Of a stretch of DNA of 49,040 nucleotides, positions 13,924 through 14,325 are shown piece after piece. This stretch comes from Candidatus Saccharimonadota bacterium (lineage in GTDB: Bacteria > Patescibacteriota > Saccharimonadia > Saccharimonadales > Saccharimonadaceae). A program made the position numbers and the translations under genes. The notes under the pieces were generated by a model. The model did not search any database, was not told where the DNA came from, and saw nothing but the letters and a program-made list of their open reading frames with translations. How positions within the stretch are numbered: position 1 is the first letter of the stretch; each line of letters starts with the position of its first letter. The stretch is taken from assembly GCA_017406405.1 (NCBI GenBank), contig JAFQYO010000015.1:1-49040 (forward strand), read 5' to 3'.

Positions 13924-13934
13924 AAGATAGGCTA

Positions 13935-14009
13935 TGGTGCGAGTGGAGGGAGTCGAACCCTCATCCCAAGTTTGGAAAACTTGTATACTAACCGCTGTAC
14001 TACACTCGC
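13935..14009 (-). tRNA. tRNA-Gly (UCC)
   Basis: The minus strand folds as a cloverleaf. The acceptor stem is GCGAGTG/CACTCGC, the anticodon stem CAAGT/ACTTG closes loop TTTCCAA with anticodon TCC, and the T arm carries GGTTCGACTCC. CCA is encoded (13935-13937). A TATAAT-like box lies at 14019-14024. Confidence 0.95.
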
Positions 14010-14040
14010 GACTATTATATTATACCATACTTTTTAAAAT

Positions 14041-14216
14041 AAAAAGGCCGATGGCCATTTTTATTTTATGGGGTGGGATATCGGGAACTTTTTCTTCGAA
14101 AAAGTTTTCGGGCGTCAACTCGGAAAATCTTGAACAAGGTTCAAGATTTTCACTCGTCTCCTACGAAGTTCGCACCTTCGGTTCTCTCCCGATATCCCAT
14201 ATTCTTACCATAAAAA
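14041..14216. repeat. Structured element made of tRNA-His 3'-end copies
   Basis: A stretch of about 40 bp starting GGCCGATGGCC (14046) and ending in the last bases of tRNA-His is repeated directly at 14225-14265. Within it a 13-bp arm TGGGATATCGGGA (14074-14086) pairs perfectly with its inverted copy at 14187-14199. Between the arms lie three perfect hairpins: 14086-14106 (9-bp stem, 3-base loop), 14123-14151 (13-bp stem, 3-base loop) and 14164-14180 (5-bp stem, 7-base loop). It encodes no protein. It may be a small non-autonomous element that targeted the tRNA gene, or a transcribed structured RNA. Confidence 0.6.
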
Positions 14217-14247
14217 TAAAAATTGGCCGATGGCCATTTTTATTTTA

Positions 14248-14325
14248 TGGGGTGGGATATCGGGATCGAACCGACGACCTTCTGGACCACAATCAGACGC
14301 TCTAACCATCTGAGCTAATCCCACC
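14248..14325 (-). tRNA. tRNA-His (GUG)
   Basis: On the minus strand the acceptor stem GTGGGAT/ATCCCAC is extended by the histidine-specific G(-1) (14325) opposite C73 (14251). The anticodon loop TTGTGGT carries GTG. CCA is encoded at 14248-14250. A near-perfect inverted repeat (14208-14250) begins at the CCA end and may serve as a 3' processing or termination hairpin. Confidence 0.93.

Follow-up and report, generated by a model that had tools for sequence, protein, structure and literature searches.

A tRNA-linked repeat of Saccharibacteria, probably a small mobile element at the 3′ ends of tRNA genes

When integrases use a tRNA gene as an attachment site, the site runs from the T-loop through the 3′ end. 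The same end is also repeated in the tRNA-linked repeats (TLRs), 22 of which are found at ten loci in Escherichia coli K-12 (PMC8144298, citing Egan and Landy 1978, Rudd 1999). The final 18-19 bp of a TLR are identical to the 3′ end of the upstream gene (PMC8144298). The function of TLRs in tRNA operons is not known, an early functional claim for rtT having been retracted, and three rRNA-linked TLRs of E. coli are transcribed, processed and able to bind Hfq and CsrA in vitro (PMC8144298). RNAs of the RtT family are visible on Northern blots in Actinobacillus (PMC4986893), and a tandem GA motif in RtT has been noted by a covariation study (PMC7657543).

Here, we describe a structured unit located 3′ of a tRNA-His gene of a Candidatus Saccharimonadota bacterium, in a window (the whole stretch of DNA analyzed) of 49,040 nucleotides. 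Its architecture is that of a tRNA-linked repeat, one that has a core of its own and comes from another phylum, and its Rfam score places it outside RtT. With a probability of about 0.6, we regard it as a Saccharibacteria repeat of the TLR or RtT type and infer that it is a small non-autonomous mobile element residing at tRNA 3′ ends. A tRNA-matched antisense arm, a wide distribution in Patescibacteria and signs of mobility are new in comparison with known TLRs.

The tRNA-His locus and its known relatives

On the minus strand, the locus reads from tRNA-His through T1, the arm, H1 and the core, H3, tail copy 2 and T2 to tRNA-Gly (Table 1). The sequence shows the unit (terminator, arm, H1, core and H3) flanked by two tails, that of the tRNA itself and a second copy of it. 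Its arm is complementary to bases 59 (T-loop) to 65 (T-stem) of the tail, and its predicted stems are maintained by compensatory changes. The 3′ end of tRNA-His does occur twice in direct orientation and in part once inverted, as the original prediction had it: a direct repeat of 51 nt (14036-14086 and 14215-14265, 92%) is composed of the tRNA tail and the terminator, and a perfect inverted copy of 13 nt pairs 14187-14199 with 14074-14086. An imperfect inverted copy of 22 nt (14178-14199) matches tRNA-His itself at 91%, and the window arm has the top arm score among the copies examined. The cloverleaf-like fold of 126 bases with three perfect hairpins that had been predicted corresponds to 14074-14199. 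Two of its inner hairpins are indeed perfect (13 bp at 14123-14151 and 8 bp at 14086-14106), but the third (GAACC-GAA-GGTGC, 14172-14184) has one mismatch in the window copy. The 13-bp hairpin is AT-rich and is surrounded by an extra stem, TTCG/CGAA; the internal loops of the core are TAGGAGACGAG and CGA..GACGCCC. The fold is far more stable than shuffles on either strand (z about −9).

Table 1. Features of the unit and its borders in the window.
Feature	Position	Strand	Basis
tRNA-His (GTG), host gene	14248-14324	minus	tRNA call and sequence
Tail copy 1, final 18 bases of tRNA-His	14248-14265	minus	sequence
T1, first terminator-like hairpin, directly 3′ of CCA	14208-14247	minus	sequence and fold
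Arm, 13-nt reverse complement of the tRNA tail (T-loop position 59 into acceptor strand)	14187-14199	minus	repeat search
H1, conserved GAGAACC-GAA-GGTGC hairpin	14172-14186	minus	sequence; consensus common to E. coli and Salmonella RtT units
Conserved core	14103-14191	minus	covariance models R1/R2
H3, third hairpin, perfect 8 bp, sequence varying among copies	14086-14106	minus	sequence and folds
Tail copy 2, TCCCGATATCCCACCCCA, identical to last 18 bases of tRNA-His (18/18)	14069-14086	minus	sequence and repeat search
T2, second terminator-like hairpin, near-identical to T1 in the window copy	14035-14068	minus	sequence
tRNA-Gly (TCC), next gene and downstream border	13935-14009	minus	tRNA call

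A plus-strand frame (13934-14305) is open across the element, antisense to both tRNAs, and similar frames are present at L053 and L061; the frame in the window is probably spurious, and it is plausible that the element has no coding potential. For comparison, a protein, tpr, is annotated in an E. coli RtT unit. The 5S gene in the window, when inspected by eye, is followed by a terminator and then by no obvious tail copy.

The link to the known repeats came from Rfam. A scan at gathering and permissive thresholds brought only tRNAs and rRNAs over the cut-off, none of them in the element; weak RtT matches (E 0.42 and 2.9) fell exactly at element coordinates in two relatives and led to E. coli tyrT and the TLRs. 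The best scores with the RtT model (RF00391) were 24.4 bits (L037) and 21.0 bits (L036), and in a scan of 60 relatives no match exceeded the cut-off of 45 bits. In the units of E. coli tyrT, the arm reads GGGGAAGGATGAGAA and the tail ATCCTTCCCCCACCACCA, and the motif GGTTCGA is present. In Salmonella, tRNA-Pro is followed by a terminator, an arm, GAGAACC...GGTTCG, a core, a hairpin and an 18-nt tail copy, with two units in tandem.

The Saccharibacteria unit shares with RtT (E. coli tyrT rttR and Salmonella tRNA-Pro) an arm complementary to the T-arm, inner hairpins and a tail from T-loop to CCA, as well as, in the family consensus, the GAGAACC-loop-GGTTCG hairpin beside the arm, where the window has GGTGCG for GGTTCG. 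However, its inner core differs, and the Rfam cut-off is not reached. Like TLRs, it sits directly behind a tRNA (or 5S in the case of TLRs), has a tail identity of 18-19 bp and may occur as one or more tandem units; the 5S-linked TLRs of E. coli likewise sit between two terminators. A search with the last 18 nt of 5S gave no copy at an E. coli 5S TLR because the repeat straddles that end. Unlike TLRs, the Saccharibacteria family belongs to another phylum, has another core sequence, occupies many more kinds of tRNA and shows signs of mobility, and the order of a terminator and then a tRNA-matched antisense arm has been measured in it as a general feature. With elements that a tyrosine integrase inserts into tRNA genes it has in common the site from T-loop to 3′ end and the duplicated tRNA tail, but the unit is smaller than 200 bp, no integrase has been seen, one core occurs at many kinds of tRNA, and in the clearest pair both tails match the host tRNA. 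The REP sequences of the REP/RAYT system are also short, non-coding hairpin DNA in many copies, probably moved in trans, whereas the present unit is strictly placed at tRNAs and Y1 transposase matches are found in 8 of 174 genomes of the genus.

Copies, empty sites and distribution

A covariance model of the core, first built from six copies, finds matches in 138 of 174 Saccharibacteria genomes of the same genus, with up to 22 in one genome, and none in the remaining 36. In the window genome a model of the relatives finds a single core, with an E value of about 1e-15 that is to be read with the window copy being among the model's building sequences. According to the original prediction, a lack of other copies and of empty sites in relatives would have left just a local duplication; many of both were found. 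A DNA search of 60 relatives located tRNA-His in nearly all genomes of the genus and the core behind other tRNAs (Val, Gln, Ser and Tyr); among the matches listed, the core is absent from every other tRNA-His gene. At an empty site in G022, tRNA-His is followed by a single terminator and then by tRNA-Gly, which marks the downstream border at most tRNA-His sites without the core as well.

A second covariance model detected the core in further genera of the family and once elsewhere in the order; of six loci checked in these genera, three have an exact 18-nt copy of the tail. True matches in a genome-wide pattern scan were those in Saccharibacteria; matches in other organisms scored at most 19 bits with the model and were taken as chance. 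Many public records of this group, Candidatus Saccharibacteria, come from ruminant guts. In a sample of 287 genomes of the phylum, the motif GATGAGAACC-N-GGTTCG occurs at eight places in 6 genomes (the pattern read backwards, as a control, gave two matches), and five of these places are directly 3′ of a recognized tRNA gene, in some cases with a tail copy (L302, L306). Matches of this motif in viral contigs were rejected, being located in apparent coding sequence. Phage, plasmid and viral collections contained no convincing match to the core, only short or coding chance matches; one RtT among the phage records is a Salmonella chromosome record filed there. Two contigs of G010 (L038, L039) stop within the element or at its edge, close to tRNA-Tyr, probably because the hairpins break the assembly; draft genomes may understate the number of copies.

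Related arrangements have also been encountered. Shorter tail duplications without the conserved core are present behind tRNA-His (L014, L016, L017, L024, L033) and tRNA-Gly (L009, L012, L023, L034); they consist of an arm, a small hairpin and a tail copy, and some of the copies extend further into the T-arm and past CCA. A second structured repeat, CTTGCTCGCTC...CTTCGCAAG within a long hairpin, lies behind several tRNAs, sometimes in place of T1 (L029 1616-1649, L062 306-339, L063 690-723, L112, L120, L134, L200, L203, L208, L278); it was not found in the window genome.

Tail copy, arm and fold

The placement of the unit was surveyed in 94 copies, all taken from among the top-scoring hits of the initial search. 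A tRNA lies upstream on the same strand in 87 of the 94, with 23 anticodons represented, and the spacing from tRNA to core is mostly 48-58 nt, a second group having about 110-130 nt. Where no tRNA lies upstream, the unit seems to have decayed or been displaced, and inspection of these copies for a hidden gene separating the core from a tRNA revealed none. In two genomes (L061 and L066), a unit away from a tRNA occupies a similar place, after a sequence ending in CCCAGCCA that resembles the tail of tRNA-Gln; these two units may represent insertion at a look-alike site. Two cores stand in tandem behind one tRNA at L098 and L133, where the window has a single one.

A copy of the tail of its own tRNA (at least 13 of 18 bases) accompanies the unit in 73 of the 87 cases and is exact in 40 of the 73. 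In most cases the copy spans the region from about T-loop base 59 through CCA, and its modal length is 18-19 nt. Past CCA the two flanks are mostly unrelated, but in the window and a few other copies the similarity continues into the terminator; unlike most copies, the window copy duplicates the terminator together with the tail (51 nt). At positions that vary between genomes within one kind of tRNA, the tail copy agrees with its own tRNA at 192 of 213. The arm is also fitted to its tRNA: it pairs with its own tRNA at bases 59-65 (T-loop 59 to T-stem 65) in 73-96% of copies, as against 24-51% pairing at variable positions when other tRNAs are used as a control, and the complementarity fades beyond base 67.

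The fold itself is conserved. All 26 modeled pairs of the core show changes on both sides, and 98.1% of cells are paired, figures that are somewhat favored by the fitting of the core alignment to the structure; shifting the partner column by one to three positions destroyed the pairing. This covariation lends strong support to the view of the original prediction that the element is structured. Wobble pairs make up 1.2% of the paired cells of the core, compared with 5.9% in the acceptor and T stems of the same tRNAs. This rarity is suggestive, though not proof, of selection on DNA palindromes, and on its account the hairpins probably act at least in part as folded DNA. It could also be compatible with strong selection on RNA.

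Signs of mobility and alternative explanations

The clearest sign of movement is a pair of tRNA-Val loci in G006 and G018. Their units are almost identical (T1 100%, one mismatch in the core), and the flanks are unrelated on both sides; each genome has its own acceptor variant, which is found alike in the tRNA, tail 1 and tail 2. The simplest account of this pattern is an insertion that duplicated the host's own tRNA end, although gene conversion between the two tails could mimic a target duplication. This is the sole clean pair with an identical unit, unrelated flanks and host-matched tails; in another pair (L062 and L065) the agreement between tail copy and host tRNA is mixed. G126 has two units that are 98.9% alike with differing tail copies, and one of the two is away from a recognizable tRNA. 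At the orthologous tRNA-Ala sites L102 and L132, T1 and T2 appear to have traded places on either side of cores that closely resemble each other, a pattern suggestive of tandem arrays that underwent deletion.

The mean identity of cores is 79% for the same tRNA across genomes and 70% for different tRNAs in one genome. Lineages thus stick to a kind of tRNA, and much of the inheritance may be vertical or restricted to one tRNA. Spread mainly inside each genome, for which clustering by genome would be expected, was rejected, as the cores cluster by tRNA. A search for a mobilizing enzyme, covering the Y1 transposase and reverse transcriptase families, found none. Y1 transposase (RAYT) has no match in 166 of the 174 genomes of the genus, the window genome included, and is present in the other 8. 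RVT_1 is present in 98 of the 174, with no association visible between its presence and the core in these incomplete assemblies: G062 and G079, for example, are rich in cores and have no reverse transcriptase, and G032 and G073 have one and no core. On these observations, neither family seems to explain the movement of the unit. The window genome encodes a reverse transcriptase of about 370 aa (G000:C14:38303-39007).

These observations may be explained in other ways than by mobility. A local duplication of the tRNA-His tail and its terminator that folds well by accident would suit the 51-nt block of the window, which includes the terminator, and the single copy in the window genome. However, the core between the repeats represents a conserved family at many tRNAs of many genomes, and such genus-wide copies refute a purely local event, to which we attach almost no credence. 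The unit might also be the remnant of an integration, in which a tyrosine integrase crossed over in the T-loop and, after loss of most of the element, left the displaced attachment site behind as the second tail. Such an origin would be in line with the existence of tandem units and with the extent of the tail copy, which covers the part of the tRNA gene (T-loop through 3′ end) that integrases use for attachment. Nevertheless, no integrase lies in the short interval (mostly 48-58 nt) between tRNA and core in the copies examined or among the open reading frames around the window copy, phage and plasmid collections and viral contigs hold no convincing match, the same structured core is kept at 23 kinds of tRNA, and both tails in G006 and G018 are of the host type, where an integrated element would bring a tail of the donor type. 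We consider such a remnant improbable. The original prediction left three readings side by side (a small mobile element using the tRNA end, an attachment-site scar and a transcribed structured RNA) and made no reference to the known architecture of tRNA-linked repeats and RtT; it is upheld in part, since the mobile element at the tRNA end is the best supported, whereas a plain integrase scar is disfavored by the last two of these points.

The third reading, that the arm and tail are kept through selection on RNA folding and that spread between genomes is incidental, seems to us possible but rather unlikely. It would explain the strong covariation of the core, the limitation of the arm to the T-stem strand of its own tRNA and the tRNA-specific lineages of the core, and it has parallels in the rRNA-linked TLRs of E. 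coli, which are transcribed, processed and bound to Hfq and CsrA in vitro (PMC8144298), and in the RtT-family RNAs detected on Northern blots in Actinobacillus (PMC4986893). On the other hand, TLRs have no known function and the early rtT claim was retracted (PMC8144298), wobble pairs are rarer than in tRNA stems, identical units stand amid unrelated flanks, and the presence of the unit is patchy, with 36 of 174 genomes lacking a match and other tRNA-His sites lacking the core.

In the favored account of a mobile repeat, the unit would enter tRNA genes at their 3′ ends, duplicating about 18 bp of the target, from the T-loop to CCA, so that the tRNA would stay functional. The enzyme that moves it would act in trans. 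The unit is possibly also transcribed. As a tentative extension, which we consider less likely than not, the TLRs of distant phyla might all belong to a single class of folded mobile elements that are non-autonomous, duplicate 18 bp of their target and have an arm refitted to each new target tRNA, their movement depending on an enzyme still to be described.

TLRs were first described in 1978, and their members in tRNA operons are still without a known function (PMC8144298). The many relatives in Saccharibacteria make the nature of TLRs testable, as either a mobile element with duplication of a tRNA-end target or a processed RNA: their fold covaries, their arm matches the tRNA in question, and in one case identical units have tails of the host type and unrelated flanks. 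The family also accounts for a repetitive feature of tRNA loci in the small genomes of Saccharibacteria and supplies a model for its annotation.
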